This document shows positions 42,431 to 49,227 of a DNA stretch of 49,609 bases, in pieces. The stretch comes from Selenomonadales bacterium (GTDB lineage: Bacteria; Bacillota; Negativicutes; Sporomusales; UBA7701): the NCBI GenBank assembly GCA_029975165.1, contig JARKPR010000015.1:1-49609 (forward strand). The letters are read 5' to 3'. A program made the translations under genes and the position numbers. The notes below the pieces were generated by a model. That model did no database searches, was not told the DNA's origin, and worked only from the letters and a program-made list of their open reading frames with translations. Every line of letters begins with the position of its first letter. The stretch's first letter is position 1.

Positions 42431-43414
42431 ATGCAGATCGGCGCGGTTGCCGTCGCCGAGCCGGCGGTGGCGCTGGCCCCTATGGCCGGCGTCACCGACC
42501 TGCCGTTCAGGCTGCTGGCCAAGGAGATGGGCTGCAGTCTGCTTTATTCGGAGATGGTCAGCTATCAGGGCCTGCTCCATAACAACTGCCATACCCTGGA
42601 CATGCTCAGGATCGACGAGCGGGAACGGCCGCTCGCCATGCAGATTTTCGGCGCCGACCCGGCCGGCATGGCGGCCGCGGCCCGCATGGTGGCGCGCGCC
42701 GGCGCCGATATCGTGGATATCAATATGGGCTGCCCGACGCCGAAGATCGTGAAGAACGGCGAGGGGTGCGCCCTCATGCGCCGGCCGGAGCTGGCCTACG
42801 CGATAATGGCGGCCGTTGCGGCGGCGGTGGACGTGCCGGTGACGGTTAAGATCCGCAAAGGCTGGGACGCGGCGTCGGTGAACGCGGTGGAGATCGCCGC
42901 CCTGGCCGAGCGGGCCGGGATGGCCGCCATCGCGGTGCATGGCCGGACGCGCGAGCAGTTTTACGCCGGGGCGGCCGACTGGGACGTCATCCGCAGCGTG
43001 AAGGAGCGGGTGGGCATCCCGGTGATCGGCAACGGCGACGTCCGTACGCCGCAGGATGCCGCGCGGCTTTTGGCCTACACCGGCTGCGACGCCGTGATGG
43101 TGGGGCGGGCCGCCCAGGGCAACCCGTGGCTTTTCCGCCAGATCGGCTGCTACCTGGCGAGCGGCCGGCTGCCGCCGCCGCCGACGGTGGCCGAGCGGCT
43201 GGCGGTGCTGGCCCGCCACCTGGCGATGCTGATCGAGTATAAGGGCGAGCGGACGGCGGTGCGGGAGATGCGCCGCCACGCAGCCTGGTATACCAAAGGG
43301 CTGCCGCATGCCACCGAGATCCGCCTGCGGCTCAACCAGGCCGAAAGCCGCGAGGATTTCGACCGTATCCTGGCGGCGCTCGGCAGCCGTCCGGCAGGGG
43401 GTGAGGGCCTATGA
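42431..43414 (+). CDS. dusB: tRNA-dihydrouridine synthase (DusB type)
   Basis: 327 residues. An FMN-binding TIM barrel with APMAGVTDLPFR at the start, the catalytic Cys in INMGCPTPKI, and IAVHGRTREQFY and GNGDV further on. It reduces uridines in the tRNA D-loop. ATG 42431 follows AGGAGTGA; the frame is open upstream from 42302 without a site. Its stop overlaps the next start (ATGA). Confidence 0.95.
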   Translation: MQIGAVAVAEPAVALAPMAGVTDLPFRLLAKEMGCSLLYSEMVSYQGLLHNNCHTLDMLRIDERERPLAMQIFGADPAGMAAAARMVARAGADIVDINMGCPTPKIVKNGEGCALMRRPELAYAIMAAVAAAVDVPVTVKIRKGWDAASVNAVEIAALAERAGMAAIAVHGRTREQFYAGAADWDVIRSVKERVGIPVIGNGDVRTPQDAARLLAYTGCDAVMVGRAAQGNPWLFRQIGCYLASGRLPPPPTVAERLAVLARHLAMLIEYKGERTAVREMRRHAAWYTKGLPHATEIRLRLNQAESREDFDRILAALGSRPAGGEGL

Positions 43415-44370
43415 TCCCGATATTGCCCGTTGCGAACGGGATTTTGCCCCGGCCGGACGGCGGCCGGATCAGCGGCGTGTTCGTCCTCGACCAGGGCGGC
43501 GAGCCGCTGGCCAAGGCCGGCGCCGGGCGGGACGTGCTGGTCTGCCCCTGGGTGGCCGAGGACGAGGCCATTTATCCGGTCGGGGTGCTGGCGCGGCTGG
43601 TGGCCATCGGGCCGCAGACGGCCGTGGACGAAACCGGCAAGGAGCTGCCGGTGCTGTTCGCCGTTCTCGAAGGGCGGGGGCATGCCCGCTGGCACACGCT
43701 GCAGGCGACCGGCGGGTTCGTCGCGTCGCCCGACGTCGAGGCGATGGACTTTAAGGCGATGCGCAAGGAGTACCCGGCCATATCGGGGGCCGGCTGGCTG
43801 CCGGCCGGCGGCTTCACCGAGTTCCGCGACCGGACGGATATTCTGGTGACCGTTTATGGCTCGGACCTCGAAACCGGCCAGACGGTGAGCATCCGCGCCA
43901 ACGTGGGCGGCCTGGTCACGCAGGAGCAGGCCCATACCGTCGAGCACGGCATCATCCGGGCCTTGCGCACGTACGGCCTGTGCACGGCGCGCACCCTGCT
44001 CGACTCCATCGTCCGGGAGACGGACGAGCTTAAGGCCTCGGTCGAGTTCGGCCTGCGCTTCGCGCTGCCGGAGATGATCGGCCGCACGGCCACCGGCGCC
44101 TGCGGCAACCCGATGACGAGCATGGCCCAGTTTTACCTGGCGCGGGAGTTCATCGACAACGTCGCCGCCGGCAAGTCCCTGCACCGCTCGCTCCACGACG
44201 CCAGGCAGCGGACGATGTCCCACATCACCGGCGACCTGGGGATAACGATGGACCGCGGCCTGCGGGCCCTTCAGGGCCTCAAGCGGGGCATGAGCCACGA
44301 CGACACCAGGCTGCGGGTCGAGACAAGCAAAAGAGTGATCGGCAAATTCCCCCTCGACCCGTGGGGTTAA
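43411..44370 (+). CDS. Conserved protein of unknown function coupled to dusB
   Basis: 319 residues, soluble by appearance, with no signal peptide. The N-terminal ~120 residues (AIYPVGVLARLVAIG, ELPVLFAVLEGRGHARW) faintly recall a Lon-type substrate-binding domain. The middle and C-terminal part is alpha-helical with distinctive motifs VTQEQAHTVEHGIIRALRTYG and TGACGNPMTSMAQFYLAREF. His, Glu, Cys and Asn residues in these could be catalytic. ATG 43411 overlaps the dusB stop. I do not recognise a family and assign no function. Confidence 0.75.
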   Translation: MIPILPVANGILPRPDGGRISGVFVLDQGGEPLAKAGAGRDVLVCPWVAEDEAIYPVGVLARLVAIGPQTAVDETGKELPVLFAVLEGRGHARWHTLQATGGFVASPDVEAMDFKAMRKEYPAISGAGWLPAGGFTEFRDRTDILVTVYGSDLETGQTVSIRANVGGLVTQEQAHTVEHGIIRALRTYGLCTARTLLDSIVRETDELKASVEFGLRFALPEMIGRTATGACGNPMTSMAQFYLAREFIDNVAAGKSLHRSLHDARQRTMSHITGDLGITMDRGLRALQGLKRGMSHDDTRLRVETSKRVIGKFPLDPWG

Positions 44371-44396: not shown

Positions 44397-44457
44397 TTGT
44401 TACTGGCAAAAAAAAGTGATAAAATTATGTATGTACACAATATTGTGCACATATAAT
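44397..44457 (+). promoter_or_regulatory. Promoter and palindromic operator of the regulator operon
   Basis: TTGTTA (44397-44402), 17 bases, TAAAAT (44420-44425) would start RNA near 44432. A 22-bp palindrome at 44431-44452 (left half ATGTACACAAT, right half ATTGTGCACAT) has one mismatched pair and covers that start. TATAAT (44452-44457) may be a second -10. Autoregulation by the HTH protein that follows is likely. Confidence 0.65.
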
Positions 44458-44474
44458 ATGGGGGAGCGGTTGTC

Positions 44475-44996
44475 ATGCTCCGGCGCGTTGGCGATAAGAT
44501 CATCAACCTGCAGAAAATTCACAAGGCGATAGACGAAGCATTGGAGCTGCGCGGTCAGGGGCTCTCGCAACAGGATGTCGCCAACCGGATCGGCGTCGAC
44601 CGCACGGTTATCTCCCGCCTGGAGACGCTCGGCGAGGTCCGCAAGGGCGGCCGCATAGCCCTTATCGGGTTCCCGGTGAAGAATTGCGACGAGCTGGCGG
44701 CGGTGGCCAGGCAGGAAGGGGTGGACTATTGTCTGCTCCTCACCGAGAAGGAACGCTGGAATTTCGTCGAGAGCAAAAGCGGTATCGAGCTGTTCAACAC
44801 TATCATGGAGATAATCGGTACCCTCCGTTCGTACGACATCGTCATCATCATCTGTTCCAATATGCGGATCAAGCTTATCGAGGCACTCTTGGACAAGGAC
44901 GTCATCGGCATCCAGATCGGTGAGTCCCCCCTCAACGAGGATAAGTACGTGAAGCCCGACATGATCCGCTCCATCATCCATCAGTTGCATTCTTGA
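44475..44996 (+). CDS. HTH transcriptional regulator with a C-terminal sensing domain
   Basis: 173 residues. An N-terminal helix-turn-helix of the Cro/XRE kind (~30-55, GLSQQDVANRIGVDRTVISRLE) precedes an alpha/beta domain (GRIALIGFPVKNCDELAAVA, DIVIIICSNMRIKLIEALL) that may bind a ligand. It is the first gene of an operon with two dehydrogenase-like genes. The palindrome at 44431 is its probable operator. Ligand unknown. Confidence 0.82.
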   Translation: MLRRVGDKIINLQKIHKAIDEALELRGQGLSQQDVANRIGVDRTVISRLETLGEVRKGGRIALIGFPVKNCDELAAVARQEGVDYCLLLTEKERWNFVESKSGIELFNTIMEIIGTLRSYDIVIIICSNMRIKLIEALLDKDVIGIQIGESPLNEDKYVKPDMIRSIIHQLHS

Positions 44997-45013
44997 CAAT
45001 TCCGGAGGCCGCC

Positions 45014-45940
45014 ATGAAAAGGATCGTCAGCATCAGCCTGGGTTCCGCCAAGCGCGACCACCAGGTCGTGAGAGAGTTCGGCGGCGAGAGTTTTTCGATC
45101 GAGCGGATCGGCACCGACGGCGACAAGGACAGGGCCATCGCCCTCATCCGCGCCTTGGACGGCAAGGTGGATGCCTTTGGCCTGGGCGGCACTGATCTCT
45201 ACATATACGCCGGGCCGCGGCGCTATACGTTCCGCGACACGGCCCGCATCGCCGCCGCCGCCCGCAGCACGCCCGTCGTCGACGGCAGCGGCATCAAAAA
45301 TACCCTTGAGCGCCGGGTGATTAGCTTTCTGCAAACGCGGCACGGCATGAATTTCGCCGGCCGGAGAGTGCTGGTGGTGTGCGCCGTCGACCGCTTCGGG
45401 CTGGCCGAGGCGCTGGCGGCGGCCGGGGCGCGGCCGGTGTACGGCGATCTCATCTACGGCTTGGGGCTGCCGCTGCCTATCCGCTCGCTGCGGGCCCTCG
45501 ACCGGCTGGCCCGCATCGTCGCCCCGCTGATAACCCGGTTGCCGACCAGTCTGTTTTATCCTGTCGGCGAGCGGCAGGAAGAGATCCGGCCCCGTTATGA
45601 ACGATACTTCCGCGAGGCCGAGGTGGTGGCCGGCGATTTCCACTTCATCCGCCGCAATATGCCAGCCGATCTCGCCGCCAAGACGATTATCACCAATACC
45701 GTGACCGCCGCCGACGAGGAGCTGCTGCGGGAACGGGGCGTGGCCACGCTGGTCACGACGACCCCGGAGATGAACGGCCGCTCTTTCGGCACAAATGTTC
45801 TCGAGGCCGTGTTGGTGGCTTCCGCCGGCAAGCGCCCGGAGGAGATGACCGCCGACCAGTACGGGCGCATGCTGGACGAATTGGGCATCGAACCGCGGAT
45901 CAAAGCGCTGAGCGATAAGGAGGCACAAACCCATGGATAA
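45014..45940 (+). CDS. Conserved protein, quinate/shikimate-dehydrogenase-like by name only
   Basis: 308 residues from ATG 45014 (CCGGAGG upstream); a TTG at 44993 is less likely. It begins MKRIVSISLGSAKRDHQV. Visible features: DAFGLGGTDLYIYAGPRRY near 60-75 and a Rossmann-like strand (RRVLVVCAVDRFGLAEALAAAGA) near 120. I recall related proteins being labelled quinate 5-dehydrogenase, but I see nothing that proves it. The gene overlaps the acyl-ACP-reductase-like gene by eight bases, so the two products probably act in one pathway. Confidence 0.75.
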   Translation: MKRIVSISLGSAKRDHQVVREFGGESFSIERIGTDGDKDRAIALIRALDGKVDAFGLGGTDLYIYAGPRRYTFRDTARIAAAARSTPVVDGSGIKNTLERRVISFLQTRHGMNFAGRRVLVVCAVDRFGLAEALAAAGARPVYGDLIYGLGLPLPIRSLRALDRLARIVAPLITRLPTSLFYPVGERQEEIRPRYERYFREAEVVAGDFHFIRRNMPADLAAKTIITNTVTAADEELLRERGVATLVTTTPEMNGRSFGTNVLEAVLVASAGKRPEEMTADQYGRMLDELGIEPRIKALSDKEAQTHG

Positions 45941-47027
45941 CTTCGCTTTTGTCGTTCATCCTCTCACCGCGCGCGATTTCTGCCGCAAATTCCCGTTTGC
46001 GAAAAACTGGTCGGACGGGTTCATCGAGGGGCTGATGCGCTACATCCCCCCGTTCAAGGTATCGAGCATCCGCGGCGTCGTCTCGCCCCACAACCGGACC
46101 GAGGGCTGGTTCGTCGGCTGCCCCCTCACGTCCCGGCAGATGATCGAGATGCCGGAGCCTTATGTGATCAGGAAGATCATCAAAGCCGGCAAGGTCGCCG
46201 AGAAGCTGGGGGCGAAGATCCTCGGCCTGGGCGCCTTCACGTCGGTGGTCGGCGACGCGGGGATAACCATCGCCAAGAACCTCAACATCGCCGTCACGTC
46301 CGGCAACAGCTACACCGTGGCCACTGCCCTGCAGGGGACCCGCCAGGCGGCTAAGCTGCTCGGCCTGAACATCGAGAAGGCCAATGTCGTCGTGCTGGGG
46401 GCCACCGGCTCGGTAGGCGCCGCCTGCGCCCAGCTCCTGGCGCGCGAGGTCCGCTACCTCACGCTGGTCGCCCGCAACGAGGCCAAGCTGGAAAAACTTG
46501 CCGGGCAAATTTTCCGGGCGACAGGTTTAGCGGCCAAAGTAACGGCGAATACTAAGGGGGCACTCAAAGCGGCCGACATCGTCATCGCCGTGACGAGCGC
46601 GGTCGACACCCTCATCGAGCCCGAAGACCTCAAAACAGGGGCGATCGTCTGCGACGTATCCCGGCCCCGCAACGTATCCCGGCGGGTGGTGGAGGCGCGC
46701 GACGACGTGCTGGTGATCGAGGGCGGCGTCGTCGAGGTCCCCGGCGATGTGGAATTCGGCCTGGATTTCGGTTTCCCGCCCCGCACGGCTTACGCCTGCA
46801 TGGCCGAGACGATGATCCTGGCTCTGGAGAAACGGTACGAAAATTTCTCCCTCGGCCGCGACCTGACGGTGAAGCAGATCGAGACGATCGAGCAGCTGGC
46901 AAGCAAGCACGGGTTCCGGCTGGCCGGGTTCCGCAGCTTTGAACGGGCCGTAAGCCCCGGAGAGATCGAGAACGTCAAGGAAAAAATCCGGGCGAGGAGC
47001 GCCCTGCTTAAGGAGGGAATCTGCTAG
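45933..47027 (+). CDS. Acyl-ACP-reductase-like NAD(P)-dependent dehydrogenase
   Basis: 364 residues. The Rossmann motif GATGSVGAA lies at 156-164. Several stretches parallel cyanobacterial long-chain acyl-ACP reductase as I recall it: LGAFTSVVGD (GGFTSI), TSGNSYT (TTGNTHT), EGGVVE (NGGVVE), AYACMAETMIL with Cys289 (FACFAEAMLL with the thioester Cys294) and ENFSLGRDLTVKQIETIEQL then ASKHGF. The enzyme may reduce an acyl thioester to an aldehyde. ATG 45933 follows AAGGAGG. Databases may call it a predicted amino acid dehydrogenase; the substrate is unproven. Confidence 0.78.
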   Translation: MDNFAFVVHPLTARDFCRKFPFAKNWSDGFIEGLMRYIPPFKVSSIRGVVSPHNRTEGWFVGCPLTSRQMIEMPEPYVIRKIIKAGKVAEKLGAKILGLGAFTSVVGDAGITIAKNLNIAVTSGNSYTVATALQGTRQAAKLLGLNIEKANVVVLGATGSVGAACAQLLAREVRYLTLVARNEAKLEKLAGQIFRATGLAAKVTANTKGALKAADIVIAVTSAVDTLIEPEDLKTGAIVCDVSRPRNVSRRVVEARDDVLVIEGGVVEVPGDVEFGLDFGFPPRTAYACMAETMILALEKRYENFSLGRDLTVKQIETIEQLASKHGFRLAGFRSFERAVSPGEIENVKEKIRARSALLKEGIC

Positions 47028-47033
47028 AAATCG

Positions 47034-47062
47034 TTGACAAATGGCTGTTTTACGCCTATAAT
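47034..47062 (+). promoter_or_regulatory. Sigma-A promoter of greA-lysS
   Basis: TTGACA (47034-47039), 17 bases, TATAAT (47057-47062): consensus hexamers and spacing. The resulting leader of about 155 bases contains the hairpin AGTGTCAAG / CTTGACACT near 47099-47123. Confidence 0.88.
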
Positions 47063-47224
47063 AAATGCCAATGAGGGGGAAACATCCTTATAGAAACAAG
47101 TGTCAAGTTGTTCGCTTGACACTATTTATATTGCCTGGGGCGGTCGGGAGGCATCGCTCCTGCCGCATGAATAATATATATACAGGTTGGGACGCAATTT
47201 CACGGATAAAAGGAGAGCGGAAGC

Positions 47225-49227
<2,003 letters not shown>

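Follow-up and report, generated by a model that had tools for sequence, protein, structure and literature searches.

The window analyzed here, a 49,609-nucleotide stretch of contig JARKPR010000015.1 from a Selenomonadales bacterium (assembly GCA_029975165.1), contains a compact unit of three collinear open frames, encoding a helix–turn–helix (HTH) regulator, a conserved protein that we call G1, and a protein resembling acyl–acyl carrier protein (ACP) reductase (AAR). An earlier, sequence-only reading had described a palindrome-regulated HTH gene followed by two overlapping dehydrogenase-like genes. The overlap is there and amounts to 8 bases, and the operator ends 23 bases ahead of the HTH start (Table 1). 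We followed this unit in two genome samples, 60 relatives of the same class and 299 genomes of the phylum, in which genomes and loci carry our own handles (G or L with three digits).

Table 1. Features of the HTH-G1-AAR unit and its surroundings in the window (amino acids, aa)
Feature	Position	Strand	Basis or remark
Promoter-like site TTGTTA-17-TAAAAT of the HTH-G1-AAR unit	44397–44425	+	Consensus scan alone, 9/12
Operator, near-palindrome TGTACACAATATTGTGCACA	44432–44451	+	Just 3' of the −10-like box
HTH_3-type regulator, 173 aa, C-terminal domain without known family	44475–44996	+	PF01381 and protein alignment
G1, conserved 308-aa protein, predicted AAR-like fold without GxGxxG	45014–45940	+	AlphaFold model
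AAR-like predicted thioester reductase, 364 aa, C289 as putative catalytic Cys	45933–47027	+	Profile, structure comparison, alignment
Separate promoter-like site ahead of greA, 12/12	47034–47062	+	Consensus scan; probable unit end

The sequence-only reading had ascribed to the last gene the layout of cyanobacterial AAR. Its motifs are where they had been placed (GATGSVG at residues 156–162, TSGNSYT at 122–128, EGGVVE at 263–268, and C289 within AYACMAETM), and profile comparison speaks for the same superfamily. In NCBIfam, the protein scores 211.3 bits against PigE (NF053554, cut-off 850) and 136.8 bits against the acyl-ACP reductase model TIGR04058 (equivalog cut-off 449.7), which far exceeds its scores against two shikimate models (22.3 and 21.8 bits, cut-offs 252 and 221); glutamyl-tRNA reductase reaches 42 bits. 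Pfam recognizes the Rossmann part alone (PF01488, 45 bits, residues 139–256), and its scan detected no class-III aminotransferase domain (PF00202). A plain shikimate/quinate dehydrogenase was ruled out because the profile scores are too low and the Pfam match is only partial. When solved structures were searched with phmmer, the PigE-like 4ppm (1.8e-32) and the AAR structure 6jzq (1.1e-29) were retrieved. Since the protein lies below the curated cut-offs for both AAR and PigE, we call it AAR-like instead of filing it under either family; the fold, cofactor loop, and catalytic Cys of the earlier assignment stood, while family membership did not.

The AlphaFold model of the AAR-like protein (pLDDT 87.7) has the three-domain AAR fold and superposes on 6jzq with a Z of 34.3 and a root-mean-square deviation (rmsd) of 2.7 over 324 residues (VIA), the first row beyond the AAR and carmabin TAD entries being at 15.1. 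In the phmmer alignment, C289 falls on the catalytic C294 of solved AAR, GATGSVG on 162GATGDIG168, and R181, K185, and R309 on R189, R193, and R314, so that the Cys and the cofactor loop coincide with their AAR counterparts. The AAR study (PMC7089970) describes R189, R193, R314, and loop 162–168 as the NADPH phosphate pocket, C294 as the acyl-enzyme residue, and Y247 as a residue whose change weakens substrate binding. The sequence comparisons and the structural model concur that the 45933–47027 product is a member of the AAR/PigE-reductase superfamily.

With Synechococcus elongatus AAR (6jzq/6jzu/6jzy/6jzz), the protein shares the fold, the catalytic Cys, the GATGxxG loop, the basic phosphate pocket, and R79 and K80 (R80 and K81 in the window protein). 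However, the two are only 27–28% identical in the structural rows, the TIGR04058 cut-off is not reached, Y247 is replaced by R244, and the ADO-interface residue R73 by P74. ADO itself (aldehyde-deformylating oxygenase, PF11266) was found in 0/60 relatives by a search that rang in the S. elongatus control, which makes an alkane route unlikely. PigE and the transaminase-AAR fusions (4ppm) have the same reductase domain, the one giving the best NCBIfam score, and Cys-bearing fusions sit behind the same operator in other genomes; in contrast to PigE, the window protein is stand-alone, without an aminotransferase domain, and falls short of the 850-bit cut-off. In PMC10829540, such fusions from three thermophiles and Pseudomonas putida are characterized as transaminases (Thermincola, Thermaerobacter, Pseudomonas). 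The carmabin-pathway TAD (9e4s, 9e50, 9e56) also shares the fold (Z 31–32), but it is a domain of an adenylation-domain protein; since we found no paper on this TAD, its reaction was not used.

The HTH protein matches PF01381 with 24.6 bits (cut-off 23), and a second, C-terminal domain is apparent in the alignment. Allowing up to two mismatches, the operator pattern TGTNCACANNNNTGTGCACA lies upstream of 81/88 HTH genes (loci L061–L180; one further gene with too little upstream sequence was left out) vs. 0/1,760 shuffled stretches, which bears out the proposed operator control of the HTH gene. With at most one mismatch, the operator occurs in a single place in the window's own genome and is present in 41 of the 60 relatives, 36 of which have it in a single place; in G042, this sole place is on a contig other than that of its AAR. 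Among the 299 phylum genomes, 70 have a perfect operator, and none the reversed pattern. As judged from these sequence counts, the palindrome is a phylum-wide operator. No such operator precedes birA, coaX, dus, greA, or lysS in these loci.

Which genes lie behind the operator elsewhere was then read from the 78 perfect sites in the 299 genomes, window included. These precede an HTH gene (56 sites), an alpha-oxoamine synthase (10), a class-III aminotransferase-AAR fusion (7; G093, G187, G192, G120, G296, G221, and G203), G1 (2), AAR (1), fabH (1), or none of these (1, in G257), and one or two chance sites are to be expected among them by our own, uncomputed estimate. G1 is present in 69 of the 70 perfect-operator genomes. 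An AAR match at 1e-10 was found in 0/10 synthase genomes vs. 58/60 other perfect-site genomes. A zinc-dependent dehydrogenase comes next after the synthase in 7/10 cases (Pfam and NCBIfam were run on two). In all seven fusions, and likewise in the L080 and L088 ones, the AAR domain contains a Cys within a CMAET-type motif, the L080 fusion (G246) being behind a site with one mismatch. The synthases, of the BioF, Kbl, and serine palmitoyltransferase superfamily, are the operator-linked enzyme of 10 genomes without an AAR match; AAR belongs to another enzyme superfamily, and the window unit has no synthase. By family, the enzymes behind the operator use acyl-thioesters and leave the acyl carbon bearing a carbonyl or amine, fabH being the exception in product. 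The fabH site (L270 6222–6241, G159) is a perfect operator in a fab-gene cluster of a genome with G1 only; as a lone case, it may be due to chance.

We next consider how widespread the unit is. AAR-like genes, counted at E 1e-10 with aminotransferase fusions included, are found in 47/60 relatives and 192/299 phylum genomes and are thus not rare in this group. G1 is present in 223/299 genomes: 186 have both genes, 6 AAR only, 37 G1 only, and 70 neither (Fisher 2e-33, a test that ignores kinship). These counts support the suggestion that G1 is a co-occurring partner. Named loci are the best 80 of 583, some of them cut by contig ends; within these 80, G1 adjoins AAR in 52, and 68 contain greA. 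Holders include Sporomusa, Anaerospora, Pelosinus, Moorella, Carboxydothermus, Desulfotomaculum, Thermoanaerobacter, and Tepidanaerobacter. When missing from the operon, G1 can sit elsewhere in the genome (far away in G106; in G234, known by its genome row only). No G1 was found in plasmids and viral contigs, and where G1 lies outside the operon, the starts of the neighboring sequences, inspected by eye, showed no common theme. That the unit belongs to a sporulation gene set is suggested by the presence of SpoIVA in 209/223 G1 genomes, but SpoIVA is in 250/299 genomes overall and in 41 without G1, and the 60 relatives comprise 40 with AAR and SpoIVA, 7 with AAR only, 2 with SpoIVA only, and 11 with neither. 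This imperfect association led us to reject a sporulation role, which we consider very improbable.

G1 itself has no Pfam or NCBIfam family over cut-off. Its sequence retrieved from the PDB only repeat proteins over ~25 residues and, at E 1.9, a fatty aldehyde dehydrogenase; its profile retrieved nothing below E 0.19. Its AlphaFold model (pLDDT 88.9) was most similar to AAR (VIA; Z 14.5, rmsd 4.1, 248 residues), followed by carmabin TAD (14.2) and then glutamate dehydrogenase and malic enzyme (10.5). Foldseek placed the binding protein 6hb0 marginally above AAR, for which the TM-score was 0.51. Sequence-level homology of G1 and AAR was tried and not supported: hhalign gave P of 0.37 and 0.14 (0.14 with deeper profiles, not significant), with a score reached by 119/300 shuffled profiles, which leaves the fold, the context, and the collinear layout as the only support. 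The alignment runs collinearly over 230 columns; a length of at least 200 columns was reached in just 1/300 shuffles. In this weak alignment, C289 corresponds to the invariant N261 of G1 and E292 to the invariant E264, and the GxGxxG loop gives way to a CAVDRFG-type motif in which D126 and R127 are invariant. Since G1 has no GxGxxG loop, it is unlikely to be an ordinary dehydrogenase. We infer, short of proof, that G1 is a diverged family with the AAR fold predicted by the model. In hhalign, G1 also matched the HTH protein over 24 columns (P 0.027), which was judged to be chance.

In L227 (5780–7297, G067), G1 lies within a 506-aa open frame, which is probably upstream read-through since G1 of the same-genus locus L228 has 304 aa. 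In L222 (6110–9422), a second, diverged G1 copy of G198 is closely trailed by a 756-aa gene whose start resembles, by eye, that of a sigma-54 activator. We take quinate 5-dehydrogenase to be an annotation name borne by G1, and set deino9.00587 beside it by that name alone. PMC9425974 tables deino9.00587, a Deinococcus-Thermus entry annotated quinate 5-dehydrogenase, among families with little annotation.

The reading that we favor, with chances somewhat better than even, is a regulated acyl-thioester pathway in which the acyl-using enzyme is exchangeable, G1 is constant, and the three-gene unit is autoregulated. The HTH protein would bind the operator, which lies next to the start region, and repress HTH-G1-AAR, and repression would probably be lifted when an acyl-thioester or product binds its C-terminal domain. 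The AAR-like enzyme would load an acyl chain from acyl-ACP or acyl-coenzyme A onto C289, where, going by fold and active-site residues, it would be reduced with NADPH to the aldehyde. Co-occurrence, adjacency, and the shared operator suggest that G1 works in the same pathway, either acting on the product or serving as a partner subunit. Across the phylum, the exchangeable enzyme would be AAR, a class-III aminotransferase-AAR fusion, or an alpha-oxoamine synthase often accompanied by a zinc dehydrogenase, and the window version would be the plain reductase. Because such exchangeable enzymes lie behind a common operator, the shared product class would be an acyl-derived aldehyde, amine, or amino-ketone.

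More tentatively, and with chances that we put a little short of even, this could be a phylum-wide, undescribed pathway of anaerobic Bacillota, where one HTH/operator pair governs a constant G1 (AAR fold, with loop and thioester Cys lost) and exchangeable acyl-thioester enzymes, whose products would be long-chain lipids or signals resembling aldehydes, amines, or sphingoids. No description of the operon, the operator, or G1 was found among the literature matches listed; the kind of enzyme is already known, and it is the setting for which we found no description. In acetogens, sulfate reducers, and thermophiles, one conserved operator connects acyl reductases with transaminase-AAR fusions and alpha-oxoamine synthases; G1 is retained widely and has no assigned activity. 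A short gene list together with a defined DNA site offers a direct handle on a candidate lipid or signal pathway of anaerobes.

Several observations weigh against a regulated pathway of this kind. The AAR-like protein is under the NCBIfam cut-offs of both AAR and PigE. The counts ignore kinship between genomes, and the 37 G1-only genomes lack an AAR match at 1e-10; when these were searched with a profile, 18 had no match at 0.001, and those found in the rest were for the most part short stretches of Rossmann type. Extra operator sites with at most one mismatch occur in 5/41 relatives (G016, G037, G044, G052, and G057), one of which (G037) has no AAR gene, and the reversed control pattern rings in four (G025, G029, G035, and G055). 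The window's own genome holds one operator, which therefore points to no amine-forming enzyme there. The 10 synthase genomes fall under four family codes, 6 under a single one, so independent swaps are few. The four synthases scanned are below NCBIfam equivalog cut-offs, L268 by just 0.5 bits in the case of BioF, and L261 and L268 best match the BioF/Kbl structure 7poa, with serine palmitoyltransferase next; the third one searched, L256, is closest to serine palmitoyltransferase (1.7e-87). Since two of three synthases are closest to BioF/Kbl, long-chain use cannot be presumed.

The BioF/Kbl matches, and the narrow miss of the BioF cut-off by L268, would also suit a biotin or glycine/threonine regulon, with BioF or Kbl as the synthases and a short or pimeloyl-type thioester as the substrate of the reductase. 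Upstream of the unit are genes that we take to be birA, bioY, coaX, and dus, named by eye from their sequences without a family search, and birA and bioY are upstream in many loci. However, birA, coaX, dus, greA, and lysS, which have no operator in these loci, look like housekeeping neighbors, and to our knowledge AAR, PigE-type fusions, and the MDR dehydrogenase are no steps of the known biotin route. We regard such a regulon as distinctly unlikely.

In 96 aligned superfamily rows, Cys is found at position 289 in 86 and gapped in 1, while G156 is conserved in 96, G159 in 90, G162 in 91, R181 in 82, K/R at 185 in 79, and R309 in 75. For stand-alone AAR rows, Cys is kept in 78/87 (the window protein is counted twice, and one AAR, from L082, is behind the operator away from G1). 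Also to be set against the favored pathway, the other 9 rows have no Cys though the gene is retained, including L060, with a TCT serine codon and 61% identity to the window protein. On a tree from which L182, gapped at the Cys, had been dropped, Cys loss requires at least four changes, three of them forced by starred branches; because long branches meet there (cyanobacterial AAR, PigE, and Cys-less rows), we used only the number of changes and not the placement.

In some loci, the gene after G1 is a diverged AAR relative, and in others it is not a clear AAR, which also counts against the favored pathway. Diverged AAR relatives follow G1 in L206 (profile E 8e-21), L234 (4e-8), and L250 (3e-11). 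The equivalent gene in L210 is weak as an AAR (4e-5), and the AAR profile found neither its 50% identical counterpart in L211 (0.43) nor the genes of L229 (2.8) and of L232 and L233 (no match). The last three are related to each other, and in these and L211 the likeness to AAR is by eye at most. The operon copy is Cys-less or diverged in 10 genomes: G070, G168, G185, G203, and G267 had 2–3 AAR-like matches, and the other five are G065, G086, G183, G227, and G336. In G203, where the operon copy is diverged, an AAR with Cys plus a fusion are behind the operator on another contig. Repeated Cys loss with the gene retained, together with diverged relatives after G1, would be compatible with an AAR-like protein that serves G1 chiefly as a structural or regulatory partner, with reduction being lineage-specific. 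This is unlikely, albeit the least so of the alternatives, since the Cys is kept in the large majority of rows and most Cys-less rows have long branches, as would be expected once the main constraint is gone.

If the AAR-like protein is an aldehyde-forming enzyme, as its sequence and fold relatives lead one to expect, the fatty aldehyde might be supplied for plasmalogen, as the sequence-only reading had proposed, or for alkyl-ether lipids; this would fit organisms that are anaerobic going by named relatives. Yet, the same genome carries a separate 1,434-aa BcrAD_BadFG/DUF2229 protein (L249 2034–6335, contig C70), with domains that we take to be those of PlsA/PlsR, the fused plasmalogen synthase, and a plasmalogen role is disfavored for this reason. 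In addition, the other operator-linked genes are pyridoxal phosphate enzymes and fabH, not ether-lipid genes. We also count against it that, according to the review PMC9702350, bacteria obtain plasmalogen by reducing the sn-1 acyl chain directly, with Selenomonadales among the holders. Feeding of plasmalogen synthesis is thus quite improbable.

Another possibility is a signaling system, where an autoinducer of aldehyde, amine, or aminoketone type would be made by the exchangeable synthase and sensed by G1 or the HTH protein. CqsA, the CAI-1 synthase, is indeed among the solved relatives of L256, most relatives with a site have the operator in a single place, and the HTH protein has its second domain. 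However, G1 copies of 29 diverse rows are 45–83% identical to the window copy, which we judged nearer to a core enzyme than to a receptor, and the conserved gene order, which tracks only the ten window genes, has no recurrent transporter or sensor kinase. We therefore find a signaling system rather unlikely, on a par with the biotin regulon, and retain the regulated acyl-thioester pathway as the favored reading.

Downstream of the unit are greA (47225–47704) and then lysS. Since greA has its own 12/12 promoter-like site, the HTH-G1-AAR transcription unit probably ends at 47027, as far as can be told from consensus matches. Between this site and greA, there is a 25-base hairpin (AGTGTCAAG..CTTGACACT, 47099–47123), followed by an AT-rich stretch, that is a possible attenuator or binding site. 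On the other side of the unit, between dus and the HTH gene, a 319-aa open reading frame (43411–44370) that reaches no family cut-off in Pfam or NCBIfam is present at the same place in many Sporomusa relatives and some Tepidanaerobacter-type loci.

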